Source: Parabacteroides goldsteinii DSM 19448 = WAL 12034
GTDB taxonomy: Bacteria; Bacteroidota; Bacteroidia; Bacteroidales; Tannerellaceae
NCBI RefSeq assembly: GCF_000969835.1
Contig: NZ_KQ033913.1
Location: forward strand, 1,098,501-1,162,500
Reading direction: 5' to 3'
DNA: 64,000 nucleotides
The translations under genes were made by a program, and so were the position numbers. Positions 19,584 to 55,397 of the stretch are shown here, one piece after another; the stretch's first letter is position 1, and the number at the start of each line of letters is the position of its first letter. A model generated the notes under the pieces. That model was not told where the DNA came from. It saw only the letters and a program-made list of their open reading frames with translations, and ran no database searches.

Positions 19584-19659
19584 CATCCGGGAGGAAAATT
19601 AATTCCATCCGGGAGAAAGTCAAATTTCTCTCGGATGAAACTAAAATCCCTTTCGGATG
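19584..19659. repeat. Four-unit 22-bp-phased dyad array
   Basis: Ten-base units start exactly every 22 bp: CATCCGGGAG at 19584 and 19606, then CTCTCGGATG at 19628 and CTTTCGGATG at 19650. The first two keep one half of the palindrome CATCCGGATG and the last two the other half. The whole array is therefore symmetric about 19621.5. The spacers differ. It fills the gap between the alcohol dehydrogenase and coaBC genes. It could act as protein-binding sites or as an RNA hairpin. Confidence 0.75.
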
Positions 19660-19682
19660 AATATTTATTTGAATGAATAAGA

Positions 19683-20888
19683 ATGATGCTGAAAGGTAAA
19701 CATATCATATTAGGAATTACAGGAAGTATAGCTGCTTATAAAGCTGCTTATATTATCCGTGCATTGGTAAAGAAAGGTGCCGAGGTACAGGTTGTAATAA
19801 CACCTGCTGGGAAAGAGTTTATTACACCGATAACACTCTCTGCCTTAAGTAGTAATCCCGTTATCAGTGAGTTTTTCTCTAACCGCGACGGCTCGTGGCA
19901 CAGCCATGTCGATTTGGGACTGTGGGCAGATGCCATGCTGATTGCTCCGGCAACAGCGTCGACAATCGGCAAGATGGCTAATGGAATAGCCGATAACATG
20001 CTGGTGACAACTTACCTGTCTTGCAAAGCACCCGTTTTCATCGCTCCGGCAATGGACCTGGATATGTTTGCCCATCCTTCTACACAACAGAATCTGGACC
20101 GTCTCCGTTCATTCGGAAACCATATCATCGAACCAGCTGAAGGTGAATTGGCAAGCCATCTGGTAGGTAAAGGCAGGATGGAGGAACCGGATAAGATTAT
20201 AGCTGTTCTGGAAGAGTTTTTCGCTTCCCGCACCGTCCTTGAAAAAAAAAAGATTGTAATAACAGCCGGTCCGACGTACGAAAAGATTGATCCCGTACGT
20301 TTTATAGGTAACTATTCTTCCGGGAAGATGGGATTTGCACTGGCAGAGGCCTGTGCACAGCAAGGGGCCGAAGTTACATTGATAGCCGGCCCGGTATCGT
20401 TGACGACCACGCATCCGAATATACAACGGATTGATGTGGAATCTGCCGAAGAAATGTATCAGGCGGCCATGACGGCTTTTCCCGAAGCGGATGCCGGTAT
20501 ATTATGTGCGGCTGTAGCCGATTATCGTCCGGAGATACAAGCAGACGAAAAGATCAAACGCGAAAGTAAAGGGGAAATGATGCTTCACCTGGTTCCGAAC
20601 AAAGATATTGCTGCCTCCTTAGGGGCAATTAAACGGGAAGGACAGGTTCTGGTCGGTTTTGCTTTGGAGACAAATAACGAAGCAACGAATGCCGAAAGCA
20701 AATTGAAGCGGAAAAATCTCGATTTCATCGTGTTGAACTCGCTTCGTGACGTAGGCGCTGGTTTCCGTTGCGATACCAATAAGATATCCATTATCGACCG
20801 TCAGGGAGAAACAACCGGTTATCCGTTGAAATCAAAACAAGGGGTAGCTGTTGATATCGTAAATAAGTTGGCAACATTATTGAAATGA
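19683..20888 (+). CDS. coaBC: Bifunctional phosphopantothenoylcysteine decarboxylase/phosphopantothenate-cysteine ligase
   Basis: This 401-aa enzyme performs two consecutive steps of coenzyme A synthesis. The N-terminal flavoprotein domain (GITGSIAAYKA) has the catalytic His75 in SHVDLG. The C-terminal ligase domain begins around VITAGPTYEKIDPVRFIGNY with SSGKMGFALAEA. At the position of the E. coli Dfp catalytic Cys158, the sequence reads ELASHLVGKGRM, that is Ser158. The start may be either of two adjacent ATGs. The stop overlaps the DUF4835 gene (ATGA). Confidence 0.97.
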   Translation: MMLKGKHIILGITGSIAAYKAAYIIRALVKKGAEVQVVITPAGKEFITPITLSALSSNPVISEFFSNRDGSWHSHVDLGLWADAMLIAPATASTIGKMANGIADNMLVTTYLSCKAPVFIAPAMDLDMFAHPSTQQNLDRLRSFGNHIIEPAEGELASHLVGKGRMEEPDKIIAVLEEFFASRTVLEKKKIVITAGPTYEKIDPVRFIGNYSSGKMGFALAEACAQQGAEVTLIAGPVSLTTTHPNIQRIDVESAEEMYQAAMTAFPEADAGILCAAVADYRPEIQADEKIKRESKGEMMLHLVPNKDIAASLGAIKREGQVLVGFALETNNEATNAESKLKRKNLDFIVLNSLRDVGAGFRCDTNKISIIDRQGETTGYPLKSKQGVAVDIVNKLATLLK

Positions 20889-21799
20889 AAATGATTAAAA
20901 GACTGTTATTCCTGTTCCTGTTGGGAACTACATCCTTTATCGGTTATGCGCAAGATAGAGCAAACGAGTTTAATGCCCAGGTCAAAATCAACAGTGATAA
21001 GATCCAGGGGACTAATAAGCAGGTATATACTACTTTGCAGGACGCTTTGACTCAGTTTATCAATACCCGGAAATGGACGGATGCAACTTTTGGTATCAAC
21101 GAACGGATTGACTGTACTTTTAATATCATTATCAACGAGGCTACTGATAACAGTTATAAGGCTGAATTGCAGATTCAGGCTAGTCGTCCGGTGTACAACT
21201 CAAGTTATGTAACGACTTTGCTGAATTTCCGTGATACACAATTAGACTTTGATTACACAGAGTTCGAACAGTTGGAATATACGGAGAATACGTTAAACAG
21301 TAACCTGATCGCTACTGTTGTTTTCTATTTATATACGATTCTGGGACTCGATTTCGACAGCTTTTCACCTAGAGGCGGAACAGCTTTTTTCCAACAAGCG
21401 CAACAGGTTGTCACCCTGGCGCAGTCTCAAATGTCGTGGAACGGTTGGAAAGCCTTTGACAGTGACCGTAACCGGCACGCAATAGCAACAGCATTGAATG
21501 AAAATGCTTCGGAAGGATATCGTGACATGTGGTATAATTATCACCGGAAAGGTCTCGATGAAATGGCTGCTAATGTGGATCGTGGACGTACTACGATCTT
21601 GTCTTTATTGCCGACATTGGAGGAATTGAAGAAAACCCGTCCGACATCTGTCCTGTTACAAATGTTTGCCGATTCCAAATTGGATGAAGTTGTTGCCATA
21701 TATTCCAAAGCAACTACGACCGAAAAGCAGGAAGGATACAAAATGCTTTCTAACCTGTATCCGGCAATGACAACCCGTTTGGAGCCACTTAAAAAGTAA
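20885..21799 (+). CDS. DUF4835 family exported protein (PorD-like, type IX secretion associated)
   Basis: This 304-aa protein has an N-terminal signal peptide (LLFLFLLGTTSFIGYAQ). It belongs to DUF4835, whose members are often named PorD for an association with type IX secretion. The naming is from family memory, and no T9SS component is present elsewhere in this window. It overlaps coaBC by four bases and lies 9 bp before recN, the conserved Bacteroidota order. A periplasmic or envelope location is expected. Confidence 0.88.
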   Translation: MKMIKRLLFLFLLGTTSFIGYAQDRANEFNAQVKINSDKIQGTNKQVYTTLQDALTQFINTRKWTDATFGINERIDCTFNIIINEATDNSYKAELQIQASRPVYNSSYVTTLLNFRDTQLDFDYTEFEQLEYTENTLNSNLIATVVFYLYTILGLDFDSFSPRGGTAFFQQAQQVVTLAQSQMSWNGWKAFDSDRNRHAIATALNENASEGYRDMWYNYHRKGLDEMAANVDRGRTTILSLLPTLEELKKTRPTSVLLQMFADSKLDEVVAIYSKATTTEKQEGYKMLSNLYPAMTTRLEPLKK

Positions 21800-21808
21800 A
21801 AGAGAATT

Positions 21809-23473
21809 ATGCTGAGATCTTTATTCATACAGAATTTTGTCTTAATAGATAGTCTGGATATTCAGTTTGATAACGGCTTTTCGGTGATAACCGGTGAAAC
21901 GGGAGCCGGGAAGTCTATTATTTTAGGGGCTTTGTCGCTGGTATTGGGCCAACGGGCCGACGGGAAAAGTATCAAGAGTGGTTCGGATAAATGTGTGATC
22001 GAAGCAACATTTGATGTTTCCAAATATCAACTGGAAGAATTTTTTCATGTGAATGATCTGGAGTATGATCCGGAAATATGTATTCTTCGCAGGGAACTGT
22101 TTGCATCCGGCAAGTCGCGTGCTTTCGTTAACGATTCACCTGTGCCGCTTACCGTCATGAAGGAACTGGGAAGCCGACTGATCGATATACATTCGCAACA
22201 TCAGAACCTGTTGCTCGGAGATAATCGCTTCCAGATGAAGGTAATCGATGTAATGGCGGAAAACGAAATCCTTCTGATCCTGTATCGTAAAGAATACCAG
22301 CGTTATCTCTCTTTGAAACGGGAGTTGAAAGATTTGACGGAGAAGGCTGATCAGAACCGCCAGGAAGAGGATTATATCCGTTTCCAACTGGAACAACTGA
22401 CGGATGCTCATCTGGTTGCCGGTGAACAGGAAGAACTGGAGCAGGAGTTGGAGACATTGTCGCATGCCGAAGATATTAAAGGATCCTTATATAAAATAAC
22501 AGAATTGTTGAATGGCGAAGAGCAGGGAAGCGTACAGCTTATCAAAGAGGCCCTTTCGACCGCCGATTCGTTGGAAAGGTTTTATCCAAAAGCCAGGGAG
22601 ATTGCCGAACGTCTGCGTTCTGCCTATATTGATCTGAACGACCTGGCCTCAGAAACCGATGTTCTTAAAGAAGATGTCGAGTTCAATCCTGAACGTCTCG
22701 AATGGGTGAACGAACGCCTGAACACTTTGTACACATTGGAACAGAAACACCGGGTTCCGACAGTGGAAGAGTTGATTGCCATTCAGGATAAATATACGGA
22801 ACAGCTACATGATATAGACTCTTTCGACGAGCAGATCGAGGGTATAAAAGCCCAGTTGGAAATATCATATCAGGAATTACTTCAGCAGGCCGCTGTTTTG
22901 AGTGAGCAACGTAAGATCGCCTCCAAAGCTATTGCCTCTCAACTGGTAAAAATGGTTATTCCGCTGGGGATGCCGAACGTGAGGTTTGCCATCGGTTTTG
23001 TTACCCGTCCGGAGCCGGAAAGCGATGGAATGGACGATATTCGTTTCCTTTTCTCTGCCAATAAGAGTGGCGAACTGCAACCGGTTGCCCAAACTGCTTC
23101 CGGTGGTGAAATATCCCGTCTTATGTTATGCATCAAGGCAATGATTGCCGGCTTCACAGCTCTTCCCGCTATTATTTTTGATGAAGTGGATACAGGAGTT
23201 TCCGGTGATATCGCCGATAAAATGGGGGATATTATGCAGGATCTGGGTACAAAGATGCAAGTGATAACCATTACCCATTTGCCACAGATTGCTGCGAAAG
23301 GTAAAGATCATTTCTTTGTCTATAAGGAAGATACAACGGAACGTACGATAACCCGCATTAAAAAATTGAATAAAGAAGAACGTGTTAAAGAGGTTGCCCG
23401 CATGTTGAGCGGTGCGTCACTAACCGGCGCTTCGATAGCCAATGCAAAAGAGTTATTGAAAACTAAACGCTGA
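21809..23473 (+). CDS. recN: DNA repair protein RecN
   Basis: This 554-aa SMC-like ATPase acts in double-strand-break repair. Walker A is at residues 29-36 (GETGAGKS), and a long coiled-coil middle carries many Glu/Leu/Lys heptads. The signature TASGGEISRLMLCIKAMI and the Walker B FDEVDTGVSG complete the C-terminal ATPase half. The length is normal for the family. It closes the dnaN-recN gene group. In related genomes rlmB commonly follows closely, but here about 4.4 kb of other genes intervene. Confidence 0.97.
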   Translation: MLRSLFIQNFVLIDSLDIQFDNGFSVITGETGAGKSIILGALSLVLGQRADGKSIKSGSDKCVIEATFDVSKYQLEEFFHVNDLEYDPEICILRRELFASGKSRAFVNDSPVPLTVMKELGSRLIDIHSQHQNLLLGDNRFQMKVIDVMAENEILLILYRKEYQRYLSLKRELKDLTEKADQNRQEEDYIRFQLEQLTDAHLVAGEQEELEQELETLSHAEDIKGSLYKITELLNGEEQGSVQLIKEALSTADSLERFYPKAREIAERLRSAYIDLNDLASETDVLKEDVEFNPERLEWVNERLNTLYTLEQKHRVPTVEELIAIQDKYTEQLHDIDSFDEQIEGIKAQLEISYQELLQQAAVLSEQRKIASKAIASQLVKMVIPLGMPNVRFAIGFVTRPEPESDGMDDIRFLFSANKSGELQPVAQTASGGEISRLMLCIKAMIAGFTALPAIIFDEVDTGVSGDIADKMGDIMQDLGTKMQVITITHLPQIAAKGKDHFFVYKEDTTERTITRIKKLNKEERVKEVARMLSGASLTGASIANAKELLKTKR

Positions 23474-23540
23474 TATGTCTATTAAACCTTTTATATCTAG
23501 AACGGTCATAGATGTAATTACTAACTAAAAATGAACAGTC

Positions 23541-24302
23541 ATGAAACGGATTAGCTTTATATGTTTGTTGATTTTATTGTGCAGTTTGCCGGGACAAGCT
23601 CAGTTTTGGATCAGTTTTGGTTGGAATGAGCCACATTGCCAGAGTTGTCTCTGGATGGAACAGGCCATGCGCCTGAACGGAAGACAGGCCGCCGATTATC
23701 ATAATATCGTACATAAGTACGGTCAGAGAATAGAAAAGGAAGCCCGTAAGCATTACCGCTATTGGGACCAGTCTGCCAAGAAGATATTTAATCTGCGTAT
23801 GGAACGTGACCGTAAGTTGCAACGAGTTCTTTCTCCTTCGCAGTTCCGTCTGTATGTTCGTTTTGTTCGCGAACGTCCGCAGCGTATCCATGATTATCAG
23901 GGATGGTATAATAACCCCCACTATCCGAATTATCGTCCCTCTGATATTTGCTGGCGTTATGAAGACCATTACTGGCATAATCAATGGGAATATTCAAACG
24001 GACGATGGCATGGGCGTTTTGATGACGGTAAGTGGTATCGGGGTAAATACGATCGTCCCAATCATCATGATAACGGACAGTGGCGTCCGGACAACCATAA
24101 TCGTCCCAATAATAACCAGCATTTCAATAAACCGTCCAGACCGGGAAATGATCGGTACGATAAGGATAAAAGACCGGACAACCGGAGAGACCGCGACCGT
24201 GATAGAGACAGGAAAGACAAAGACAGAAAAGAAAAGGATAAAAAGGAAAAAGACAATAAACGGCAGGAAAGTAAACGCTCTGAAGTTTACCGCAGAAGCT
24301 GA
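23541..24302 (+). CDS. Secreted basic protein with low-complexity charged tail, unknown function
   Basis: This 253-aa protein has a signal peptide (FICLLILLCSLPGQAQFW). A helical region of about 100 residues with a repeated HxxxxKxxQ-like pattern follows, then a Trp/Tyr/His/Asn-rich stretch (WYRGKYDRPNHHDNGQWRP). It ends in a highly charged tail of Lys, Asp, Arg and Glu (about residues 205-253). The tail might bind nucleic acid or acidic polymers, but nothing identifies a function. It stands 67 bp after recN and starts the accessory block before rlmB. Confidence 0.8.
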   Translation: MKRISFICLLILLCSLPGQAQFWISFGWNEPHCQSCLWMEQAMRLNGRQAADYHNIVHKYGQRIEKEARKHYRYWDQSAKKIFNLRMERDRKLQRVLSPSQFRLYVRFVRERPQRIHDYQGWYNNPHYPNYRPSDICWRYEDHYWHNQWEYSNGRWHGRFDDGKWYRGKYDRPNHHDNGQWRPDNHNRPNNNQHFNKPSRPGNDRYDKDKRPDNRRDRDRDRDRKDKDRKEKDKKEKDNKRQESKRSEVYRRS

Positions 24303-24323
24303 AAATACTGATTGAACTTTCCG

Positions 24324-24365
24324 GAACATGAGTTTGTTCCTAGTATAAAGAATAAACTCATGTTC
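24324..24365 (+). promoter_or_regulatory. Hairpin enclosing the start codon of the DUF1622 gene
   Basis: GAACATGAGTTTGTTC (24324-24339) pairs with GAATAAACTCATGTTC (24350-24365) over 16 bp with one G-U pair and a 10-nt loop. The ATG of the downstream gene (24360-24362) lies inside the right arm. In RNA this would mask the initiation site. As DNA it could be an operator. Confidence 0.55.
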
Positions 24366-24707
24366 ACGCATTTTCTAAATATTCTGGCTACGGTTATCAG
24401 TGTGGTAAGCCTGCTGATCGTTACTTATGGGGCACTGGTCGCTTTTATCTCTTTTCTGGGAAACGAACTCAAGCGATTTACCGGACAATATTCAACAGTC
24501 AATATCCGTCGGCTGCGAGCGGAATTAGGTACTTATTTATTATTGGGATTGGAGTTGCTGATCGCTTCAGATATTCTTAAAACCGTCTTGGAACCCAGTT
24601 TGGACGAACTGGCTATCCTTGGCGGTATTGTTGTTTTAAGGACCATCCTTTCCGTTTTTCTGAATAAGGAGATTAAAGAGTTGGATAGTGAAAAGGAGGC
24701 CTCATGA
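24360..24707 (+). CDS. DUF1622 family membrane protein
   Basis: This 115-aa protein has three predicted hydrophobic segments (ILATVISVVSLLIVTYGALV, YLLLGLELLIASDILKTVL, LAILGGIVVLRTILSVFL). It matches the DUF1622 pattern of small integral membrane proteins, including the conserved RAELGTYLLLGLELLIA segment. The ATG at 24360 gives the usual family start. A TTG at 24312 would add 16 residues without clear character. The start codon is buried in a strong hairpin. The function is unknown. Confidence 0.85.
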   Translation: MFTHFLNILATVISVVSLLIVTYGALVAFISFLGNELKRFTGQYSTVNIRRLRAELGTYLLLGLELLIASDILKTVLEPSLDELAILGGIVVLRTILSVFLNKEIKELDSEKEAS

Positions 24708-24740
24708 ACTTTCAGGATTAGGATATGTCGTTAAAAATCG

Positions 24741-24748
24741 TACTTTTG
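24741..24748 (+). promoter_or_regulatory. -7 element before the small membrane protein gene
   Basis: TACTTTTG matches TAnnTTTG and lies 22 bp before the ATG at 24770. It supports that start over an in-frame ATG at 24725, which lies upstream of the promoter element. Confidence 0.5.
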
Positions 24749-24769
24749 CATTTCAGTAAAAGTAGACGG

Positions 24770-25180: not shown

Positions 25181-25379
25181 AAGTTTATATGACGTAATTT
25201 ATTGAATATTAGAATTGTTGGAATGATAATTTTTTTTGTTCTATTTTATATGAATTATAATATTTATTAGTATATTTGTTAACAAGTTTAATGTGCTTAT
25301 TGAAATAATTTTTCTCAAATAGAATTGTTAATTAAATTAGAGTTATTTCCTTTTTTATAACTAATAAATGTATTGTCTT

Positions 25380-25757: not shown

Positions 25758-25760
25758 AAC

Positions 25761-27699: not shown

Positions 27700-27753
27700 C
27701 TTGTTTTTACCCGCTTGCCATAATCAGATGACTGCTGGTTGATATAATATTCT

Positions 27754-27841: not shown

Positions 27842-28594
27842 ATGAAGGAAAACGAAATGGTGTTCGGCATACGTGCCGTAATCGAGGCTATCCAGGCCGA
27901 TAAGGAAATAGATAAAATACTTGTTAAGCGCGAGTTGCAGGGAGAACTTTCCCGTGAATTGTTCGAGGTGCTGAAAGGACGCGATATTCCTGTACAGCGT
28001 GTACCGGCCGAACGTCTTGACCGCCTGACCCGGAAGAATCATCAAGGAGTGATCGCCTTTATTCCGGCTGTTACTTATCAGCGTCTGGAAGATATTATTC
28101 TTTTCGTTTATGAACAGGGAAAGAATCCTTTCATCGTACTTTTGGACGGCATAACCGATGTCCGTAATTTCGGGGCAATTGCCCGTACCTGCGAATGTGC
28201 CGGTGTGGATGCTATTGTTATTCCGGCTAAAGGAAGCGTGACAGTGAATGCGGATGCCATCAAAACATCTGCCGGAGCGTTACATGTATTGCCTGTTTGT
28301 AAAGAGAAAAGCATTGAAGAATCCATTCGTTTTTTACAGGCTAGCGGAGTCAAGGTCTATGCAGCCAGCGAAAAAGCTTATGAGAACTATACTTCTATCA
28401 AATATGACGGTCCGGTTGCTATCGTAATGGGAGCAGAGGATAAAGGAGTTTCTATGGATAACCTGCGAATCTGCGACAGCATGGTGAAAATACCGCAGTT
28501 CGGAACGATCGGTTCCCTGAACGTCTCGGTAGCCAGCTCCATCCTGATTTATGAGGTTGTCCGCCAGCGTATGAATGAAGAACAAAACAACTAA
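27842..28594 (+). CDS. rlmB: 23S rRNA (guanosine-2'-O-)-methyltransferase RlmB (TrmH/SpoU family)
   Basis: This 250-aa SPOUT methyltransferase probably modifies a guanosine of 23S rRNA. The N-terminal substrate-binding part begins NEMVFGIRAVIEAIQ. The knotted SAM-binding domain shows DGITDVRNFGAIARTCECAG, AIVMGAEDKGVS and SLNVSVASSILIYEVVRQ, the three SpoU motifs. It stands just before the RidA gene. RlmB versus another TrmH paralogue cannot be fully separated by eye. Confidence 0.9.
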   Translation: MKENEMVFGIRAVIEAIQADKEIDKILVKRELQGELSRELFEVLKGRDIPVQRVPAERLDRLTRKNHQGVIAFIPAVTYQRLEDIILFVYEQGKNPFIVLLDGITDVRNFGAIARTCECAGVDAIVIPAKGSVTVNADAIKTSAGALHVLPVCKEKSIEESIRFLQASGVKVYAASEKAYENYTSIKYDGPVAIVMGAEDKGVSMDNLRICDSMVKIPQFGTIGSLNVSVASSILIYEVVRQRMNEEQNN

Positions 28595-28607
28595 AAAGAT
28601 AAACACA

Positions 28608-28988
28608 ATGAAAAAAGTTATTGCAACAACAAATGCACCGGCCGCCATCGGTCCTTACAGCCAGGCCATACAAGTAGGAAATATGCTTTTCGCTTCCGGA
28701 CAGCTGGGTATCGATCCGGCAACCGGTAATTTCGTAGAAGGAGCTGTAAAGGAACAGACTGCTCAGGCTTTCAAGAATGTGAAGGCTATCCTGGCAGAAG
28801 TCGGTCTTGATATCAGCGACGTAGTCAAAACTACTGTTTTTCTTGCTGATATGGGGGATTTCGGAGCGATGAACGAAGTATACGCCTCTCAGTTTGAAGG
28901 TGCTTTTCCAGCACGTTCGGCTGTTGCTGTAAAGACTTTGCCGAAGAATGGTTTGGTAGAGATTGAAGTGATCGCTGTAAAGGCTTGA
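28608..28988 (+). CDS. ridA: RidA family reactive-intermediate deaminase
   Basis: This 126-aa protein hydrolyses reactive enamine/imine intermediates such as 2-aminoacrylate. The family features are APAAIGPYSQAIQVGNMLFASGQLG, the catalytic Arg in PARSAVAVKTLPK, and the C-terminal VEIEVIAVKA. The ATG at 28608 gives the standard start and lies 13 bp after the rlmB stop. A strong dyad array/terminator follows. Confidence 0.95.
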   Translation: MKKVIATTNAPAAIGPYSQAIQVGNMLFASGQLGIDPATGNFVEGAVKEQTAQAFKNVKAILAEVGLDISDVVKTTVFLADMGDFGAMNEVYASQFEGAFPARSAVAVKTLPKNGLVEIEVIAVKA

Positions 28989-29002: not shown

Positions 29003-29090
29003 AAAATAAGGGACTTTTGAAGTTAAAAGTCAGGACTTTCGTTTTTAAAAGTCCTGTCTTAACATTTCAAAAGTCCCTTATTTTTTTTCA
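29003..29090. terminator. Bidirectional terminator built as a 22-bp-phased dyad array
   Basis: AATAAGGGACTTTTGA (29005-29020) pairs with TCAAAAGTCCCTTATT (29067-29082), and CAGGACTTT (29031-29039) with AAAGTCCTG (29048-29056), both centred at 29043.5. AAAAGTC starts at 29025, 29047 and 29069, 22 bp apart, and (G/A)GGACTTT at 29010 and 29032, again 22 bp apart. An 8-T tract follows. It lies between convergent ridA and the TlpA-like gene, so a terminator role in both directions is likely. Confidence 0.8.
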
Positions 29091-29105: not shown

Positions 29106-30668
29106 TTATTCTTGAGTCAGTGACAAACCTACTATTTTGAAACAGGAATCGCAATCACCTTCGATGAAATCGACTGTTTTTGTTCCGGCCGGCAAAGCGG
29201 GAAAGTGCAGTTTAAAGGAATATTCACCTGATTCCGGCATTGTGAAGCGTTCGTCCGGTGTGATGCCGTCTGCTGATGTTAGCGGATAATGAGTACCGTC
29301 TTCTGTTTTCAGGAAAGTATCCTTGCCGATACTTACCCAGTATCCGGGAGAATTAAAGGCTTTCATATGGAAAATCGTTTCAGAACCGGTCAACTCTATT
29401 CTGTTGATCTCTACAGTTTCCGTATTGCTTGATTTTTCAATAGGAAAATCAACAATGGTCGTGTTCCCTTCCTTTTTCACAGACATAACACGGTCTGATT
29501 TGTTTACCCATTTGTTTAGCTTACGTTTAAGTAATCCTTTTCCGTATCCGCTCCAGCTATGCAGAATGATCCCTTCCGGTGAGATAATGACGTAATGAGG
29601 TATTCCTCTTACATTATATTTAGCTGCCAGTCCGCTCATTCCTCCAAAATCATTCAGGTTTACCCATGACATATCTTTCGTTTTAGAAATCTCTTTCCAT
29701 CCTTTTTCTGTGTCTGTGCTCAGACTTATGACAGTTACTTTGTCTTTCCATGTTTCGGATATTTCTTTCATTTCCGGCAAAGCCATCATACAAGGACCAC
29801 AACCGCGGCTCCAAAAATCGACCAGGAGATATTTACCTTTATAGTCGGCCAGATGATGAATATTGCCTTGCAGGTCGTAAAGGTCGGTATCCGCCATTTC
29901 ATCGCCTTCTTTCACTGTAACGGGAGGATAAAGACATACCGTGATTTCCTTACCTGCCTGAGAGTTTTTCTCATTATCGGATAACTTGTTGTATAAAGCA
30001 ATCAAATCTTCCTTATAAGGATAGTTCTCCATGTATTTACTTTGCTTGCATTGGCCTAGCAATTTATCCATCCAGACTGTTCCTTTAGGAGTTTGCTGCA
30101 TTATTTCGATTTCTTTTTGGGAGGAGATCAGTCGTAATGAATCCGTTTTTTTCTGAAGTTCTTTCATTTCATTCCTGATCGCATTCTTTTCTTCTTCGGA
30201 AGGATTGCCCGTCCTTCCTTTGGAGAACAAATCCATTAACTGTATATAGATTTCCTGTTCTTTACTACATTCTTCCCGGCAAGCGTCGGCATACCGGTTT
30301 AAATCCTGCTGTTCCTGGATATCGGCCGATACATTCCATGTTCTGATAAGTTTATTATTACCGGTAACGGTTGTCTCTTTGCCGGGAGCCACCCATACAT
30401 CCAGCCAGGTGTTTGGAAACCCTTTGTCATGGCTGGAGACCATTAATGCTTCGGGAGCATTGTCGACGGTTTCACCTTTGAAGGTAAAACATTCATTGAT
30501 GACCGTATCCTGAGCGATCTGGCTCATGACTTGTCCGTCACTACGATAAAGGACAATCTGGGTACTGTCCTTCAGTCCGGAGATTTTGCCTTTTATCGTG
30601 AATTCGTTTTGTGCTTGTGCAGATATAACGAATATAAGCGATATACCTGCTAAAAGTGCTTTTACCAT
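29106..30668 (-). CDS. TlpA-like thiol-disulfide oxidoreductase with N-terminal DUF4369
   Basis: This 520-aa exported protein has a signal peptide ending near AQAQ, an N-terminal DUF4369 domain (FTIKGKISGLKDSTQIVLY) and a helical middle. A thioredoxin fold has the active site GCGPC within VDFWSRGCGPCMMALPEMKE. A C-terminal beta domain of about 140 residues follows. It probably reduces or isomerises disulfides in the periplasm or at the surface. Bacteroidota carry many paralogues of this architecture. It shares the strand of ygiQ, 75 bp downstream of it. Confidence 0.9.
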   Translation of the reverse strand: MVKALLAGISLIFVISAQAQNEFTIKGKISGLKDSTQIVLYRSDGQVMSQIAQDTVINECFTFKGETVDNAPEALMVSSHDKGFPNTWLDVWVAPGKETTVTGNNKLIRTWNVSADIQEQQDLNRYADACREECSKEQEIYIQLMDLFSKGRTGNPSEEEKNAIRNEMKELQKKTDSLRLISSQKEIEIMQQTPKGTVWMDKLLGQCKQSKYMENYPYKEDLIALYNKLSDNEKNSQAGKEITVCLYPPVTVKEGDEMADTDLYDLQGNIHHLADYKGKYLLVDFWSRGCGPCMMALPEMKEISETWKDKVTVISLSTDTEKGWKEISKTKDMSWVNLNDFGGMSGLAAKYNVRGIPHYVIISPEGIILHSWSGYGKGLLKRKLNKWVNKSDRVMSVKKEGNTTIVDFPIEKSSNTETVEINRIELTGSETIFHMKAFNSPGYWVSIGKDTFLKTEDGTHYPLTSADGITPDERFTMPESGEYSFKLHFPALPAGTKTVDFIEGDCDSCFKIVGLSLTQE

Positions 30669-46161: not shown

Positions 46162-46198
46162 CTTGTTGAAACGATGAATTTAGATATCACTTATTTTT

Positions 46199-46230: not shown

Positions 46231-46239
46231 ACTTTGAGT

Positions 46240-47292: not shown

Positions 47293-47335
47293 ATTCTTGT
47301 TTTGTTTTTAGTTTAACATCTTAACCATCTCTTAT

Positions 47336-48778: not shown

Positions 48779-48838
48779 AATCTTACTTTTTTTATTTGTT
48801 TTGTATTTTAATTGATTTGATAAAATTCTATGAATCGT

Positions 48839-50806
48839 TTATTGCCGATAGAGTATAAGAGCCGATGAAGCTGCAATCTTTACACTTCCTCCCAGTAAAC
48901 GATCCTTGCCCTCCGGGTCGATCTGTCCGTTGCGGCAAACAACATTCCATTCGCCTTCCGGAATGCCGATCTCTGCTTCATGGCGATTGCCATTGTAAGC
49001 GACAAGGATTTCTTTCCATTCATCGTTATTGGCATATTCGCCCAGCGTATAGGCTATTACTCCCGAATCACCGGTGTCCATAAAACGAAGCCATTGTTGC
49101 AGACCTTCGACTGTGGGAATGCGGAAAGCCGGGTGTGCCTTACGGAGTGCGATCAACCCTCTGATAAAGTCGAATACCTCCCGGTTTTTAGCTTTTAACG
49201 ACCAGTCGATCCGGTTGATGGAATCGGGTGATTTGTAACTGTTTGGTTCCCCTTGTTTATCCTGCATGATCTCTTCACCGCTGCGGATGAAAGGGATTCC
49301 CTGTGCTGTCAGTAACACGGTATGCACTAGTTTGTCGATCGGGATGAGTTCATCCGCCGCATGGTCGCCTTGAACGGATAATTTTAGCTTGTCGACCAGC
49401 GTATAACCGTCGTGGCAGGAGACGAAATTGATCATTTGCGAAGGAGCACCTGCATAAGGAGCATTGCAATAGAGCAATCCGTCATAGTCGATTTGCGGAT
49501 GATCGGTTCCACCGACGATACCATACTTGACCGGTTCGAAATGACCGTTGATATTTCCGGAAGCATAACCGGGCTCCTGTTCGTCGAAGGTACTGCCTTT
49601 CAACCCGTCACGAAATTCATCGTTGAATACGCCGATACCTTCCATCTGCCCGACATTTTCTTTTACTGCCCGTTGTTCGAAGGGGAGGGGCGAGTCGGCT
49701 GCTACCCAGCCTTCGCCGTATACGAAGATGGTCGGATCGATCTCCAGGAGTTCACTTCTCAAGCGGTTCATCGTCTCGATATCATGTATGCCCATCAGGT
49801 CGAAACGGAAGCCGTCGATATGATATTCCCTGGCCCAGAATTTGACCGATTCGATGATATAATGCCTCACCATTTCGCGCTCCGAGGCCGTCTCGTTTCC
49901 GCAACCGGAAGCGTTGGAATAAGAACCGTCGGCGTTTTGCCGGTAAAAATATCCAGGGACAGTCAGGTCGAAATTCGAATGGTCGGTCGATGCCGTGTGG
50001 TTATAGACCACATCGAGTACAATGCGGAAACCGTTTTGATGCAGGCTTTTCACCATCTCTTTAAATTCGCGGATACGGACGACCGGATTGGCCGGATCTG
50101 TAGAATAACTTCCATCGGGAACATTGTAATTCTTAGGGTCATATCCCCAGTTGTAATGATTCTCGTCCAGCTTTGTTTCATCTACAGTGGCAAAATCGAA
50201 CGAAGGCAGGATATGGATATGAGTTACACCGAGCTCTTTCAAATGATCCAAACCGGTAGCTTCTCCTTCGGGAGTTTTTGTCCCTGTCTCCGTCAGAGCC
50301 AGAAACTTCCCTTTATTCTCTATTCCTGAATCAGGCGCAATACTGAAATCCCGGTGATGCAACTCGTAAAGAATAATGTCGGAATACATTTTCAGTTCTG
50401 GTGACCGGTCCGATTCCCAACCTTCCGGATTCGTTTCATTCCAATCGATCACAGCGGCACGGTTCCCATTGATACCGACGGCTTTTGCCCAGATACCGGG
50501 TGTTTCGTTCAACCATTTTCCGTTTTTCTCTATCTGAAAGGTGTAGAAAGAACCTTTCAGGTCACGGTCGATATGGATTCGCCAGGTTCCATAGCCGGCT
50601 TTTTCCATTTCTACCTGTTCTTCCGGGTCGCCTCCCTCACCGGACGCATACAGGTTCAGCCGGACACGGTCTGCAGACGGTGCCCATAAAGTGAAAACAG
50701 ATTGTTCGGGTGTATAAACCAGTTCCAGGTCACTCCCATAATAAGACGGATACTTGTCATACGAATCCAATCGTTCCGTAGACGGATGATCTGTTAAAGT
50801 CTCCAT
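48839..50806 (-). CDS. pulA: Type I pullulanase (GH13 with CBM48)
   Basis: This 655-aa debranching enzyme has an N-terminal CBM48-like domain (VFTLWAPSADRVRLNLYASG). The GH13 core has the pullulanase signature YNWGYDPKNYNVPDGSY. The catalytic regions are VLDVVYNHTAS, GFRFDLMGIHDIETMN (nucleophile), VYGEGW (acid/base) and FVSCHDGYTL. There is no signal peptide, so it should act in the cytoplasm on alpha-1,6 branches, cooperating with the amylase downstream. Confidence 0.95.
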   Translation of the reverse strand: METLTDHPSTERLDSYDKYPSYYGSDLELVYTPEQSVFTLWAPSADRVRLNLYASGEGGDPEEQVEMEKAGYGTWRIHIDRDLKGSFYTFQIEKNGKWLNETPGIWAKAVGINGNRAAVIDWNETNPEGWESDRSPELKMYSDIILYELHHRDFSIAPDSGIENKGKFLALTETGTKTPEGEATGLDHLKELGVTHIHILPSFDFATVDETKLDENHYNWGYDPKNYNVPDGSYSTDPANPVVRIREFKEMVKSLHQNGFRIVLDVVYNHTASTDHSNFDLTVPGYFYRQNADGSYSNASGCGNETASEREMVRHYIIESVKFWAREYHIDGFRFDLMGIHDIETMNRLRSELLEIDPTIFVYGEGWVAADSPLPFEQRAVKENVGQMEGIGVFNDEFRDGLKGSTFDEQEPGYASGNINGHFEPVKYGIVGGTDHPQIDYDGLLYCNAPYAGAPSQMINFVSCHDGYTLVDKLKLSVQGDHAADELIPIDKLVHTVLLTAQGIPFIRSGEEIMQDKQGEPNSYKSPDSINRIDWSLKAKNREVFDFIRGLIALRKAHPAFRIPTVEGLQQWLRFMDTGDSGVIAYTLGEYANNDEWKEILVAYNGNRHEAEIGIPEGEWNVVCRNGQIDPEGKDRLLGGSVKIAASSALILYRQ

Positions 50807-51285
50807 ATATATAAATTTAATATTAATACTGCCTAAACTATACTGTTTTAGCTGAATAGAATCTACTTATTCCCTCGACTTTTTAAAAACAATTGAAAGA
50901 TTAAAATGTCCGGTTCGAAAAGGAGTATTTATGAAAATAAAAAGATTTATTAAGGTAATTTTAGTTGGGCTTAGTCCCGAATTATACCTTACAGTCAGTT
51001 TTTTACTAGTACTATATTATGTCCAGTCAAATAACGATAATCTTGAAGCATCTGATTATCGGGTTTGTTGCAGATGTATTGACAGCTATATACAATTTTA
51101 GACTAATAAAGGCTTGTATGTTTCTGTTTTCGAAAAAGTCGTTAATTAACATAGCTCTATCCAAACCATATTTTTACAGAACCTGTTTTTTCTCGTGTAT
51201 GGTGATAAGTAGAGTTTTTGTCAGGCCTGACGCTCCTACTCGGTGATTTATTTAATTATTTTATTTACATCCTAAATTTTTTATT
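50807..51285. other. Intergenic region between divergent pulA and glsB-like genes
   Basis: This 479-bp AT-rich region has no clear TAnnTTTG element for pulA. It contains one small possible reading frame (50931-51101) and an overlapping weaker one at about 51019-51246. I see no RNA gene. Confidence 0.5.
50931..51101 (+). CDS. Possible 56-aa small membrane peptide
   Basis: An ATG with an unusually good ribosome binding site for this phylum (AAAAGGAG, 6 bp upstream) opens a 56-codon frame. It has a basic start (MKIKRFIKVILVG), a hydrophobic segment (LYLTVSFLLVLYYV) and a Cys-containing tail (YRVCCRCI). It may be a real small protein, the start of a degraded gene, or chance. No family is recognised. 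Confidence 0.3.
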   Translation: MKIKRFIKVILVGLSPELYLTVSFLLVLYYVQSNNDNLEASDYRVCCRCIDSYIQF

Positions 51286-51543
51286 ATGAATTTTATTTGG
51301 TATATTATTATTGGGATCGTTTCCGGATTTCTTGCCGGAAAGATCATGAATGGTGGAGGTTTCGGGCTCCTCATTAATTTGTTGGTGGGAATCATCGGTG
51401 GCGTATTAGGAGGTTGGGTATTCGGCCTGTTAGGTATTGCAACTGCCGGTATCCTGGGCAGTCTTATTACTTCTGTTATAGGGGCTGTCTTACTGCTGTG
51501 GATCGTTTCTTTCTTCAGGAAACCTCACAAAGCAGACATTTAA
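51286..51543 (+). CDS. GlsB/YeaQ/YmgE family stress-response membrane protein
   Basis: This 85-aa membrane protein has three hydrophobic stretches rich in Gly (IIIGIVSGFLAGKIMNGGGF, LLVGIIGGVLGGWVFGLLG, ILGSLITSVIGAVLLLWIVS), the transglycosylase-associated GlsB/YeaQ pattern. Such proteins are associated with envelope stress. It heads a row of plus-strand genes with YtxH, Mn catalase and an outer-membrane protein, suggesting a common stress response. Confidence 0.93.
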   Translation: MNFIWYIIIGIVSGFLAGKIMNGGGFGLLINLLVGIIGGVLGGWVFGLLGIATAGILGSLITSVIGAVLLLWIVSFFRKPHKADI

Positions 51544-51584
51544 TTTATCGTTCTAGTATTAATCGTTTTAAACTTATCAGATTT

Positions 51585-51881
51585 ATGGAAACTAATCATT
51601 CAAAATTTTGGATGGGCCTGGGTTTGGGCTCGATTATCGGTGCAGTTGTCTATCATTTCTCTTGCTCTTCAAGAGGCAAACAACTGAAAGAAAAAGTACG
51701 TCATGTCTTTCATAAGGCCAGTGATAACGCCGAAGAATTAGTGGATGAAGCAAAAGACAAAGCATTGCAAACCGGAACAAAAGTAGCGGATAAGGTAGCC
51801 GACGGTACTTTTAATCTTGCGGAAAAAGCCGATGAGGTGAAGAATAAAGTACATGCTTTTGCAGATAATGCGAAGAAATGA
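51585..51881 (+). CDS. YtxH domain-containing protein
   Basis: This 98-aa protein has an N-terminal membrane segment (FWMGLGLGSIIGAVVYHFSC). A long amphipathic, Lys/Ala/Asp-rich helix with 11-residue-like repeats follows (KASDNAEELVDEAKDKA, VADKVADGTFNLAEKA), as in YtxH and LEA-like stress proteins. It lies 41 bp after the GlsB-like gene and 26 bp before the catalase. Confidence 0.85.
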   Translation: METNHSKFWMGLGLGSIIGAVVYHFSCSSRGKQLKEKVRHVFHKASDNAEELVDEAKDKALQTGTKVADKVADGTFNLAEKADEVKNKVHAFADNAKK

Positions 51882-51907
51882 TAATGTGTAATTTAAAATA
51901 TTGAGTT

Positions 51908-52888
51908 ATGTTTTATCATGTAAAAGATTTGCAATATAACGCCAGAGTATCTGCCCCCGATCCACGTTTTGCACGTTTGTTATTAGAGCAGTTCGGCGGG
52001 TCGAATGGTGAGTTGAAAGCCGCTATGCAGTATTTTGTACAGGCATTCAGTTGCCGTAATCCTTTCCCGGAAAAGTACGATATGCTGATGGATATTGCGA
52101 CTGAAGAGTTGGGTCATTTGGAGATTGTAGGTGCAACCATCCAGATGTTGCTGGGACCGGTCAACGGTGAGATGAAAGATGTGGTCGAGAATATGGAAAT
52201 TAATAAGATGATGAATGGTAGAGCAGCGAAAGAAGATTTTATTCACCAGGCTTATACAAATCCTCATTTCCTGGTTTTGGCCCCCGGTAGCCCGGCGCTG
52301 ACCGACAGTAACGGGAATCCCTGGAGTGCCACTTACGTCACAGCCAATGCCGAACCGACGGTCGATTTACGGTCGAATCTGGCAGCTGAGTCTCGTGCAA
52401 AGATCATGTATGAATATCTTATTCCGTTTACGGATGATCCGTATGTGAAGGAAACTCTCGATTTCCTGATGACCCGTGAAGTTGCCCATTATCAGCAATT
52501 CGAAGCAGCTTTGGATTCTATTAAACCCAATTTCCCGCCGGGTATTTTTCAGACTAACCCGAAATATAGCAATCTGTATTTCGATATGTCGAAGGAGGAA
52601 GAAGCACGCGGACCGTGGAATGAAGGAAGTAGTACCCAGTTGAAAGAGGAGTGGCAATATATCGATAAGCCCCAGGAATATGTTACTTCCACCGACGGGT
52701 TGACTAATGTAACTCCTAAAGGAACCGACCGGACTGAAGAGATGGTAAAAGAGAAGGATGAGAAACTTGCCAAGGAACGGAAGAAAATGATTCTTTCCAA
52801 AACTCCGGCAAAGGATATGCAGTGGAGCCATTATCAGCCTGACGGAAACATGAAGAAGAATTCTAAAACGAATAAACATTCCAACTAG
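51908..52888 (+). CDS. Manganese catalase
   Basis: This 326-aa non-haem catalase decomposes hydrogen peroxide at a di-manganese centre. The expected ligands are visible: Glu35 (GSNGELKAAM), Glu66/67 and His70 (IATEELGHLEI), Glu161 (LAAESRAKI) and His194 (REVAHYQQF). A charged C-terminal tail of about 60 residues follows the ferritin-like core. It stands in the stress gene row and is the main peroxide-detoxifying enzyme recognised here. Confidence 0.95.
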   Translation: MFYHVKDLQYNARVSAPDPRFARLLLEQFGGSNGELKAAMQYFVQAFSCRNPFPEKYDMLMDIATEELGHLEIVGATIQMLLGPVNGEMKDVVENMEINKMMNGRAAKEDFIHQAYTNPHFLVLAPGSPALTDSNGNPWSATYVTANAEPTVDLRSNLAAESRAKIMYEYLIPFTDDPYVKETLDFLMTREVAHYQQFEAALDSIKPNFPPGIFQTNPKYSNLYFDMSKEEEARGPWNEGSSTQLKEEWQYIDKPQEYVTSTDGLTNVTPKGTDRTEEMVKEKDEKLAKERKKMILSKTPAKDMQWSHYQPDGNMKKNSKTNKHSN

Positions 52889-53013
52889 GAAGTCTGAACA
52901 TGTTTAGAATCCGATTACCCTGGATTTCATCTATCGGTTGTCATAAGGTAGCTGGCGGTATGTACCAGGGTGATCTTTTATAGGAATAAGTTTTTTAATT
53001 AAATTGAATGATC

Positions 53014-53520
53014 ATGAAAAAGTTTATAGGTTTAGTTGTCTTATTGACAATCTCATTAAGTTCATTTGCGCAAAAGGGAGATTTCTCATTATTGGGAAAT
53101 TTCGGTTATCAAACCGATTTCAAACGTGTTATGATCGGAGCCCAGGGGCGCTATAACCTGACGAACCATGTACGTCTGGCCCCCGACCTGATGTTTTTCT
53201 TTCCGAAGAATAAGGTGACAGGGTTCGATATCGATGTGAACGCTCATTATGTCTTCAACTTGCATGAAGATAACTTGTCGCTTTATCCGTTAGCCGGTTT
53301 TAATCTACAGAATAATTTCCAGGGCAAACAAACCATCAAGGGGGATGATGGTAAAGAAACTACGCTCGATTCACATAGTTCTACCAATTTCGGGTTTAAC
53401 CTGGGTGCCGGCCTTACCTATAATTTAGATAAACGCAACTTTCTGAATGTCGAGTATAAATATGTATTCGGCAAAGATAACAACTCCGTTATCGCATTTG
53501 GTTGGGGATACCGTTTCTAG
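53014..53520 (+). CDS. Outer-membrane beta-barrel protein, small
   Basis: This 168-aa protein has a signal peptide (FIGLVVLLTISLSSFAQKG) and an 8-strand-like beta barrel with aromatic strand ends. It ends VIAFGWGYRF, the terminal Phe expected for BAM insertion. GYQTDFKRVMIGAQGRYNLT and YVFNLHEDNLSLYPLAGFNL are typical of small OmpA/OmpX-like barrels. An ATG two codons earlier (53008) is also possible. It is in line with the stress genes upstream. Confidence 0.85.
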   Translation: MKKFIGLVVLLTISLSSFAQKGDFSLLGNFGYQTDFKRVMIGAQGRYNLTNHVRLAPDLMFFFPKNKVTGFDIDVNAHYVFNLHEDNLSLYPLAGFNLQNNFQGKQTIKGDDGKETTLDSHSSTNFGFNLGAGLTYNLDKRNFLNVEYKYVFGKDNNSVIAFGWGYRF

Positions 53521-53559
53521 TAAGAAGACAACTATCGTTTTAAACAAATAGAAAAAGTT

Positions 53560-53676
53560 ATGAATAAAATAATTATATCTATGGCGCTTTTAGGCGTCAT
53601 GCAGATTTCTTATGCCCAGGAAAAAGAAGGCTGTATGTTGAATAATCGTATATCTCTAAACCGTAACCTACTCTGA
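53560..53676 (+). pseudogene. Truncated exported-protein gene (38 codons)
   Basis: An ATG after GAAAAAGTT opens a complete signal peptide (MNKIIISMALLGVMQISYAQ). The mature part is only about 18 residues (EKEGCMLNNRISLNRNLL) before TGA. This looks like the 5' end of a secreted or outer-membrane protein gene, perhaps a paralogue of the preceding barrel gene (39 bp upstream), cut off by deletion. A short real peptide cannot be excluded. Confidence 0.5.
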
Positions 53677-53770
53677 AAAAGGGAGTACCTCGATTAATCA
53701 GAGACCTCTTGCAAATTAAGCACTTTTTTAGGGGTACTCACTTGAATTTGATCTGTTATGGGGATCACAC

Positions 53771-53807
53771 AAAAAGGGGAAAGAAATTAAGTTTTCTTCC
53801 CCCTTTT
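53771..53807. terminator. Bidirectional terminator between plus and minus genes
   Basis: AAAAAGGGGAAAGAA pairs with TTCTTCCCCCTTTT around a short loop, with T-tracts on both strands. It separates the barrel-gene group from the minus-strand lipoprotein gene. Confidence 0.75.
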
Positions 53808-53827
53808 ACTTTGGTAATCCGGCGAGA

Positions 53828-54118
53828 TCAGTCGAGTTTTTCTTTTATATCCTTTTTGGTTTTGTCGTAACCCTCCTTGATATTCTTTTTCGCCTCTTGT
53901 GCATTTTCTTTGACATCTTCTTTGGTGTCGTTCCAGGCATCTTTCACTTTGTCAGCCCCTTTGTCGATCTTGTCCGCAGCTTTGTCCATCGCATGGTCGA
54001 CAGATTCTTTGGCATTTTCTACTTTGTGATTTACTTTATCCTGGGTTGTCTTGTTACCGCAGGATGCTAATAGCAGGACGACTGTGCCTGCTATTGCTGC
54101 TAAAACTAACTTTCTCAT
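53828..54118 (-). CDS. Small lipoprotein with LEA/YtxH-like charged helix
   Basis: This 96-aa lipoprotein (lipobox LLLASCGNK, Cys at residue 20) has a mature part that is almost one amphipathic helix with repeated motifs (AMDKAADKIDKGADKVKDAW, TKEDVKENAQEAKKNIKEGY). The composition resembles the YtxH protein at 51585 and LEA-like stress proteins. It is likely an envelope stress lipoprotein. The exact role is unknown. Confidence 0.85.
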   Translation of the reverse strand: MRKLVLAAIAGTVVLLLASCGNKTTQDKVNHKVENAKESVDHAMDKAADKIDKGADKVKDAWNDTKEDVKENAQEAKKNIKEGYDKTKKDIKEKLD

Positions 54119-54205
54119 TTGTTTAATTGGTATTTAATTAATACTAGTTTTTATAAAACAGAACTGATAAGTGGAAAGTTCTGTTTAAGGTCTGAATATT
54201 AACTG

Positions 54206-54781
54206 TTATAAATGTTTTTCGTTCAACAATTCCTCTCTTTTTTCTGTATTGGCTCTGATCATCTTCTTTATAAATCCGGTTAGTTTCATAGCACTGACTT
54301 CATAAAAGCCTATGCGTATAAATATAGCTTTGATTCCGTTTTTCTCATACAGTTTGTCAAAGCGCCAAAACCACGTGGGACGGACGGTGGCTGGTTTATA
54401 ATCCCTGTCTATCAGAAGACGTATAAAATATTGTCCCCTGTAATAGAATTCATCTGCTCTGAGGATTGCGTCCCATTCGATTTCTTCACGTATATCGGAC
54501 ATTTCCGTGATACCGTTTTCTGTCAGAATAATGTAAGGTTTTCTGTCGAAGTAAGTGCCGATACCGAAAATCAGACATAGAACGGACAAGATAATAAAAC
54601 TCCAGCCCACCACATAATAATCGGGATGGTGAAGGAAAAGTTTACCGGCAATTGCCAGTAGCAAACTAACTAAAATAAATAGAATGGCCTTACTTCTGGA
54701 TTTATATATAACTACCTTGTTATCTATACAGGTTTCTGAATCCAATAGTTTCACGGATGACTGTTTTGTGAATGTTTCCAT
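54206..54781 (-). CDS. Membrane protein with PH-like domain (STM3941-like), unknown function
   Basis: This 191-aa protein has two adjacent membrane helices (AILFILVSLLLAIAGKLFL, VVGWSFIILSVLCLIFGIG). A cytosolic beta-rich domain follows (YIILTENGITEMSDIREEIE, WDAILRADEFYYRGQYFI), resembling the small PH-like STM3941 family. The ATG at 54781 is preferred over one four codons earlier. It lies 88 bp upstream of the lipoprotein gene on the same strand. Confidence 0.75.
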   Translation of the reverse strand: METFTKQSSVKLLDSETCIDNKVVIYKSRSKAILFILVSLLLAIAGKLFLHHPDYYVVGWSFIILSVLCLIFGIGTYFDRKPYIILTENGITEMSDIREEIEWDAILRADEFYYRGQYFIRLLIDRDYKPATVRPTWFWRFDKLYEKNGIKAIFIRIGFYEVSAMKLTGFIKKMIRANTEKREELLNEKHL

Positions 54782-54992
54782 ACATATATACATTTAATAT
54801 TAATACAGGTTGAATAAAAAAAATATCAATTGCCAAATAGAATTGACTGGGTGTATAAATTAAACATTACTAATTCTTTATAGGTTCGGATTTTATTCGG
54901 ATTGCTAGCAATAATTAACGAAATGACGATAATTTTTTAGAGAGTTTCGATTATCGTTATTCGCAAAATAGAAAATTGTCATTTTGATAATT

Positions 54993-55045
54993 ATCCCTTA
55001 CATTCCCGGCTCTATTTGGAAACAGGAATGTAGGGGATATTTTTT
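54993..55045 (+). terminator. Orphan plus-strand terminator
   Basis: ATCCCTTACATTCC (54993-55006) pairs with GGAATGTAGGGGAT (55025-55038), with one G-U, and is followed by a 7-T tract. No plus-strand gene ends upstream, since the nearest upstream gene is on the minus strand. It may therefore end a small RNA or an antisense transcript. Confidence 0.65.
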
Positions 55046-55297
55046 TGTGTTTCTGCAAGAGTTAAGGTTTGACGTAGAGATATTTGTAGAAGATAAAATG
55101 TACATTTAAGTAGGTAATAATAAAATCATCGTAATGATTTTAGAGCTAGTGGCAGAAATAAGACAAAACCAGTTACAATCTGTCACCTGAAAACTACCTG
55201 TCCGGAAATACCTTCCAGCCTTATGGAAGGTCTATTACCCCCGTTTTATGAGATAATCACGAAGTAAATTTCCTGATATTTTGTAATGTTAAAAAAA

Positions 55298-55397
55298 TCA
55301 TTGCAATGACCAGTCCGGTTCATTGTGATAAGTACCTGGAGTCATTGTGATGACTTCCACAAGGTATTGTGATGATAGGGAAGAATCATTGCAATGA
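55298..55397. repeat. Five-unit 22-bp-phased palindrome array
   Basis: Twelve-base units start exactly every 22 bp: TCATTGCAATGA (55298), TCATTGTGATAA (55320), TCATTGTGATGA (55342), GTATTGTGATGA (55364) and TCATTGCAATGA (55386). The outer units are perfect palindromes. The 10-bp spacers are unrelated. A further isolated TCATCGTAATGA lies at 55126. The array lies about 180 bp upstream of a truncated tyrosine recombinase gene. Regulator or recombinase binding sites are possible. Confidence 0.8.

Follow-up and report, generated by a model that had tools for sequence, protein, structure and literature searches.

A 64,000-nucleotide stretch of Parabacteroides DNA (contig NZ_KQ033913.1, positions 1,098,501 to 1,162,500 of the forward strand; hereafter the window) carries three intergenic arrays of short dyads, none assigned to a strand: locus 1 at 19582-19660, locus 2 at 29003-29090, and locus 3 at 55298-55397. 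All three were present where the original prediction had placed them. On balance, and with modest confidence, we favor the view that these loci belong to a class of short, noncoding intergenic elements of Tannerellaceae and some Bacteroides, that the elements are nonautonomous and resemble miniature inverted-repeat transposable elements (MITEs) or repetitive extragenic palindromic (REP) elements, and that their 11-bp half-site ladder is under selection, probably through a protein that binds DNA or recombines it. The plan is common to several sequence families, some of which occupy tens of intergenic places in a single genome.

A 22-bp ladder in intergenic DNA

We compared the distances between palindrome centers (at least 6 of 8 positions paired) with those in 60 dinucleotide shuffles. 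The DNA was intergenic and came from the window, from 46 Tannerellaceae loci (L001-L046), and from three genome samples of 400 kb each, in total 743 fragments and 214,318 bp. In this set, in which one sample overlaps a set locus by approximately 4.5 kb and the related species are not independent, 72 pairs of centers were separated by 22.0 bp versus 21.2 ± 4.1 in the shuffles (maximum, 33). The signal formed a ladder, with 81, 72, 56, and 67 pairs at lags of 11.0, 22.0, 33.0, and 44.0 versus 28.5, 21.2, 21.3, and 19.1 after shuffling. The peak was sharp, the counts at 21.5 (28) and 22.5 (21) being close to the background of 21, and it was retained when each fragment was counted once (51 versus 20.1 ± 3.9). 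The window alone, which is too small for this test, yielded 1 pair at 22.0 and 6 at 44.0.

A comparison set of 515 fragments, mostly from Bacteroidaceae (L047-L080, of which two carry the title Parabacteroides or Tannerellaceae and one the title Bacteroidales, and samples of P. vulgatus and B. xylanisolvens), exhibited no clear peak at 22.0; its 21 pairs versus 13.2 ± 3.7 lay within the shuffle range (maximum, 28). Coding DNA showed no consistent lag-22 peak: the 46 Tannerellaceae loci gave 30 pairs versus a mean of 31.0 per lag, and the highest count was 23 versus 15.0, in two samples.

A strict detector of chained palindromes, which demands a constant step, identified 37 arrays in the real sequence versus 0 in one shuffled set. 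The period was 22.0 in 21 of these arrays, 21.0 in 7, and 23.0 in 5, and the other four lay between 20.5 and 23.5. Locus 3 was the only one of the window's three loci to pass this detector. A species-specific period (21 in one species and 22 in another) was also considered, but arrays of both periods occur in P. massiliensis and the idea was abandoned.

These results bear out the original prediction of a recurring architectural class whose commonest period is 22 bp; the lag analysis against dinucleotide shuffles that it had proposed produced a peak at 22 in Tannerellaceae intergenic DNA and not a flat profile. The opposite possibility, that the three loci are selected coincidences, has nothing in its favor beyond the small number of loci in a single window. 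It is refuted by the lag-22 peak and contradicted by reversed-pattern controls that stood at 0 for the GTTTC pattern and the locus 1 core described below, and we regard it as practically excluded.

Dispersed families built on one plan

The arrays are composed of half-sites of 5-7 bp in alternating orientation, approximately 11 bp apart, with a dyad every 22 bp and often a 7+4+7+4 layout. The family formulas are GTTTC-N8-GAAAC-N4, CTTTTG-N4-CAAAAG-N6, AAAACAY-N2-RTGTTTT-N6, and GATCAC-N4-GTGATC-N6. Mean identity between adjacent units was 0.81 in the arms, 0.66 in the loops, and 0.56 in the linkers under a detector that favors arms and loops, with values of 0.35-0.54 at the dyad center and approximately 0.45 in the middle of the linker.

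Locus 1 comprises four CATCCG/CGGATG half-arrays, two direct and two inverted, which are 22 bp apart within each pair. CATCCG starts at 19584 and 19606 and CGGATG ends at 19637 and 19659, in a nested inverted arrangement with a fold z-score of -5.1 (0 of 200 shuffles folded as well). Locus 1 is a member of a dispersed CATCCG/CTTCCG..AGRAA family. We searched 23 genomes with a pattern of two units at 22-bp spacing, allowing up to 3 mismatches, and used the reversed pattern as the control. The search revealed 211 matches in 15 of the 23 genomes and 0 control matches in all 23; P. bouchesdurhonensis (G005) contributed 66 matches at 42 places, P. gordonii 28, P. goldsteinii 26, and two further relatives 30 and 29.

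Locus 2 is a foldback element in which CTTTTG/CAAAAG dyads at 22 bp lie within a long nested hairpin (fold z-score -12.1; 0 of 200 shuffles folded as well), and it is a homologue of the CTTAACATTTCAAAAG family. With up to 1 mismatch, this core gave 65 matches in 5 of 22 genomes and none in the other 17, versus 3 for the reversed control; P. bouchesdurhonensis had 46, P. gordonii 9, P. goldsteinii 7, and two more genomes 2 and 1, and not all matches are elements, those at L307 and L319 appearing unrelated in context. Twenty P. bouchesdurhonensis copies could be aligned over approximately 103 bp and ended abruptly, at AAAGAGCT.. and AAAGGATAT... Their flanks were mostly unrelated; five shared flanking context, and two of these were identical. 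The end words were AAAGGATATATC and AAAGAGCT(GA/AT)C, and a copy's own ends matched at a mean of 8.6 of 17 positions versus 10.7 for swapped ends, with one end called automatically approximately 11 bp off in 5 of the 20 copies.

The pattern GTTTCN8GAAACN4GTTTC had 267 matches in 7 of 9 genomes, 116 of them in P. gordonii, and a reversed control of 0. Of 296 sampled Bacteroidota genomes, 7 contained it, and two of these had many copies (116 and 84); the control matched 4 times in total. Each family is thus patchy and lineage-specific. The AAAACAY core was found at 8 places in P. massiliensis. Intergenic placement was seen in the copies looked at from the GTTTC and locus 2 families, which are a part of all matches. 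No shared function was evident among the neighbors: in the 39 of 40 proteins flanking 20 P. gordonii elements that were scanned (one L269 protein was left out), no Pfam family appeared in more than 2.

The original prediction had argued that a shared architecture without shared sequence pointed away from a conventional repeat family. This argument does not hold for loci 1 and 2, given the 211 dispersed matches of the locus 1 core and the approximately 103-bp foldback family to which locus 2 belongs. Its description of the cores as locus-specific is not supported either: the cores of loci 1-3 recur, as do GTTTC and AAAACAY, and locus-specific sequence is found mainly in the innermost bases and linkers.

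Three further observations concern these families. In B. xylanisolvens (G009), 6 of 11 GTTTC places on C1 fall near the two ends of the 5.98-Mb record, within its final 0.4 Mb or initial 0.3 Mb, a possible chromosomal clustering. In two species (L030:20436 and L040:20152), AAATATCGACGATATTT dyads are interrupted, in 21-bp register, by a TATCTTTAGNCTAAAGATA dyad, and this mixed array suggests that one ladder can be assembled from units of more than one family. A 46-bp insertion at L009:6803-6848, which contains a GTAGAGACAGGGCATGCCCCGTCTCT palindrome and is absent in L011 (the loci are 93% identical), appears to be one more small intergenic element of palindromic type.

Conservation of half-sites and spacing

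Locus 3 consists of five TCATTGYRATGA-type dyads in exact 22-bp steps; the dyads (TCATTGTGATGA-type) start at 55298, 55320, 55342, 55364, and 55386. Its fold z-scores were -3.4 and -5.6 on the two strands, with 1 and 0 of 200 shuffles as good. A leftward gene flanks the array on one side; on the other is a rightward gene fragment that has a SAM-like integrase domain. Orthologous arrays were identified in P. gordonii (G002:C2:384779-384878) and P. goldsteinii (G001:C85:16629-16728) with a two-unit pattern allowing up to 2 mismatches. Of the 23 genomes searched, 5 contained this pattern and none its control; B. xylanisolvens had it at five places, P. goldsteinii at two, and P. gordonii at one. 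In the gap-free alignment of the window with these two arrays, 7 of 60 columns were variable in the units versus 18 of 40 in the linkers (Fisher p = 2.9e-4). The 100 bp on each side varied at 34/100 and 33/100 columns in the three species, and the gene fragment at 49/324.

The fragment is the 5' part of a tyrosine recombinase gene (55576..55902, + strand), which encodes 108 amino acids with a SAM-like DNA-binding domain; the similarity stops at 55899. The gene is full length in P. gordonii (306 amino acids) and P. goldsteinii, where it adjoins the same array, and its product is, from this sequence context, a candidate reader of the ladder. Within 55576-55947 of the window, the recombinase frame stops after codon 108 (55899) and is directly followed by a BACON-domain reading frame. 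A separate 108-amino-acid homologue (P0002; 42 member sequences, 6 contigs) stops at the identical residue, and a recurrent DNA rearrangement or an assembly artefact at this codon may be involved. P. gordonii and P. goldsteinii largely retain a lone TCATCGTAATGA dyad that lies at 55126-55137 in the window, approximately 170 bp upstream of locus 3 and outside the 22-bp register.

For locus 3 only, the array could instead be a single-locus operator, five phased dyads bound by a regulator that is perhaps the recombinase itself. That the array has stayed beside one gene in all three species fits this idea, as does the small number of places of this type in P. gordonii and P. goldsteinii. An operator nevertheless leaves the dispersed families of the same geometry beside unrelated genes unexplained, and we consider it very unlikely.

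P. gordonii sequence could be matched to both flanks of 7 of the 19 GTTTC loci of P. goldsteinii (G001). Five corresponding pairs, nearly all picked by the half-site pattern in both genomes, differed at 2/160 positions in the half-sites, 20/64 in the inner N4, and 7/44 in the linkers. The three pairs with well-aligned flanks differed at 0/90 in the half-sites, 9/36 in the N4, and 16/180 in the 30-bp flanks. At locus 3 as in these pairs, half-sites and spacing are retained over linkers and inner cores, which supports the shared architecture of the original prediction.

The inner sequence and the elements themselves turn over between species. In the pair L395/L276 (P. goldsteinii/P. gordonii), the central linker-unit-linker is inverted; most inner cores are changed in L397/L273 and L404/L264, a single core is changed in L403/L415, and the one remaining pair is nearly identical. 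Locus 1 lies approximately 10 bp past the stop of the preceding gene, which encodes an iron-containing alcohol dehydrogenase, and approximately 22 bp before coaBC (19683..20888, + strand; TIGR00521, 442 bits), which is 95% identical to its homologue in a Parabacteroides metagenome-assembled genome. No array was found upstream of coaBC in L001-L003, where the gap is short; the gap in the window is approximately 100 bases longer, and P. bouchesdurhonensis (L012) has a related array in it. The locus 2 element has a homologue beside ridA in P. gordonii, and in the P. goldsteinii genome it adjoins the thioredoxin-like gene, not ridA.

Identical N8 cores were shared between loci in 85 pairs versus 24.8 ± 6.8 expected when the two related genomes were taken together, a count that includes orthologous loci. 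For P. gordonii alone the figures were 29 versus 10.4 ± 4.9 (null maximum, 47), and for P. goldsteinii alone 7 versus 3.8 ± 2.2; B. xylanisolvens showed no excess. Core sharing across loci is thus suggestive only.

These changes also bear on a neutral explanation, in which minisatellite growth sets the period by duplication and hairpin-templated mutation (quasipalindrome correction) keeps the arms alike. It accommodates the single period within each array and the different periods between arrays, which the detector reports under its constant-step requirement, and the inverted center of L395/L276. It also accommodates a cluster of substitutions at locus 2 that, relative to P. gordonii, yields a perfect stem at unchanged length. 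In the same vein, a 20.5-bp array of 11 units at L030:14609-14814 corresponds to approximately one unit in L040 (84% identical), a difference produced by recent expansion or loss. Set against this explanation are the persistence of units and exact spacing at locus 3 while linkers diverge, the reuse of identical half-sites at tens of places, and the 22-bp preference among unrelated cores, which duplication does not predict. Because the locus 1 core was found dispersed, we rate the minisatellite and single-locus explanations lower, and the former appears distinctly unlikely.

Function at the DNA or RNA level

The explanation we favor for the ladder is that a dimeric or oligomeric protein reads one half-site per helical turn on double-stranded DNA; alternatively, such a protein may pair and recombine half-site ladders. 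Units would be copied and exchanged between loci, and hairpin formation would be a second property beside half-site recognition. Three results favor the DNA level when taken together. The sense strand folded better in 13 of 24 GTTTC elements between tandem genes, which is no strand bias; the 40 GTTTC elements examined lay in tandem (24), convergent (11), and divergent (5) gaps according to mechanical open reading frame calls; and in B. xylanisolvens the half-sites were conserved and the N8 cores of different units were not complementary beyond random.

The main rival is a function at the RNA level, especially at locus 2, with hairpin arrays that terminate transcription or stabilize 3' ends and that were multiplied by hairpin duplication. 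It retains this place because the GTTTC elements lie nearer to stop than to start codons, the median distance being 68 bp for the former (n = 46) and 164 bp for the latter (n = 34), with 54 bp as the smallest distance to a start codon, and the predominance of convergent over divergent gaps points the same way. Locus 2 itself lies between convergent genes, the RidA-family gene ridA (28575..28988, + strand; TIGR00004) upstream and a thioredoxin-like gene (29106..30668, - strand) on its far side, and folds much better than its shuffles. By eye, at least 15 of the 35 relatives listed have a simple hairpin followed by T-rich sequence in the 3' slot of ridA, and L084 and L211 have arrays with other cores there. 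The nested hairpin of locus 2 runs into a T-run on the + strand. Where such an element is transcribed, as may be the case at locus 2, the nested hairpin probably acts as a terminator or 3' barrier.

Several findings count against the RNA-level explanation. Strand-biased RNA elements were rejected in view of the 13/24 result. Locus 3 and 5 of the 40 GTTTC elements lie in divergent regions, by the same mechanical calls, and adjacent hairpins have no need of a common half-site sequence. A terminator scan called nothing at locus 1 and only the inner stem, on the opposite (-) strand, at locus 2. We consider an RNA-level function possible but would not expect it to prove correct.

The selection of a DNA-level ladder must be weighed against a number of contrary points. 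The period differs by array, from 20.5 to 23.5 (mode 22). The conservation of GTTTC half-sites and of locus 3 units is partly built in by the patterns with which the orthologues were found, and the 78 bp before the gene at locus 3 are as invariant as the units (8/78 variable). Ungapped flanks align badly in two of the five GTTTC pairs (42/60 and 21/60), the matched slots L392/L272 and L393/L152 hold quite different arrays, and both flanks could be matched for only 7 of the 19 G001 loci. No target-site duplication was evident, none of 20 locus 2 family copies having flanks that match over 5 bases or more; matches of 2-4 bases were within the permutation range in these copies, the ends of five of which were misplaced. 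Neither a cognate protein nor a transposase was identified, and Y1 transposase genes are absent from the element-rich G001 and G005.

Core complementarity belongs on the same side. In 14 three-unit elements of P. gordonii, the N8 cores of units 1 and 3 were complementary at 4.57 of 8 positions versus 2.71 for units 1 and 2 and 2.56 for random pairs, which the RNA-level explanation can claim for itself. Best-pair complementarity over 40 loci was 4.675 versus 4.09 ± 0.18, the maximum of 2000 shuffles being 4.7. Direct identity over the same loci was similarly raised (4.8 versus 4.16 ± 0.18), and the unit 1/3 complementarity fits a foldback or inversion history.

A more specific form of the DNA-level reading would have geometry-selected ladders throughout the genome recognized by a DNA-binding protein that evolves along with them, possibly a tyrosine recombinase or one of its relatives. 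The features that point to a recombinase-site array are the geometry, the one inverted center, and the recombinase gene beside locus 3. The half-site word would depend on the lineage, the inner bases would be exchangeable and invertible cassettes, and locus-specific cores would arise from recombination between ladders. We regard this elaboration as unlikely in its full form.

Comparison with known systems

In the portions of the literature available, the nearest described element is BrickBuilt, a MITE of Porphyromonas gingivalis and P. gulae with 19 dispersed intergenic copies, a 23-nt tandem unit, and predicted long stem-loops; 22-nt tandem repeats in P. gingivalis W83 are also mentioned there (PMC4596501). 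Its units follow one another as direct repeats with no spacers, and leader and tail segments are usually present, together with ends like those of insertion sequence IS5, GAGACCTTTGCA (PMC4596501). The ladders resemble BrickBuilt, as described there, in the order Bacteroidales, intergenic and dispersed placement, a similar tandem unit length, and stem-loops. They differ from it in that their units are dyads with divergent linkers and periods of 20.5-23.5 and not spacerless 23-nt direct repeats. The IS5-like end was absent from the window even when 1 mismatch was allowed, and the ends of the 20 locus 2 family copies are different.

The REP families with REP-associated tyrosine transposases (RAYTs) described in PMC3733652 carry an unpaired GTAG or CGTC tag. 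The ladders share with REPs and bacterial interspersed mosaic elements, as described there, small dispersed intergenic palindromes that are often in inverted clusters, lineage-specific, and of several families per genome. Unlike them, the ladders have no constant GTAG/CGTC tag, none being seen by eye at the ends of 20 locus 2 family copies or in the flanks of 40 GTTTC elements, and RAYT is missing from two element-rich genomes. The RAYT domain Y1_Tnp (PF01797) is present in 4 of 9 genomes, and RAYT-driven REPs are not supported given its absence from G001 and G005. Like MITEs, the elements are dispersed and noncoding and have no transposase of their own. The accessible parts of a MITE review (PMC10969869) and a P. 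gingivalis resequencing paper (PMC5771137) offered no closer match. Rfam at gathering thresholds gave no match in the window. Among the best-ranked papers in a full-text library that lacks most subscription papers, no account of such elements in Parabacteroides was seen.

Locus 2 resembles an intrinsic terminator in its slot and in its predicted T-flanked hairpin, but the ladders add an internal 22-bp periodicity, dispersal with a fixed sequence, and placement in divergent regions too. Clustered regularly interspaced short palindromic repeat (CRISPR) arrays combine a conserved palindromic repeat with a variable spacer of constant length. The ladders share this combination; however, their repeat and spacer are far shorter, and they form many short arrays and not a few long ones.

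The new aspect is the fixed 11/22-bp ladder geometry within a known kind of element, the dispersed intergenic palindrome. If this reading is correct, Parabacteroides and some Bacteroides carry dispersed intergenic elements whose half-sites and spacing are fixed while their inner sequence turns over. The position of locus 3 before a tyrosine recombinase gene in three species would then provide a handle for finding the ladder-reading protein, and a route toward explaining the spread of short palindromic elements for which no transposase is evident.

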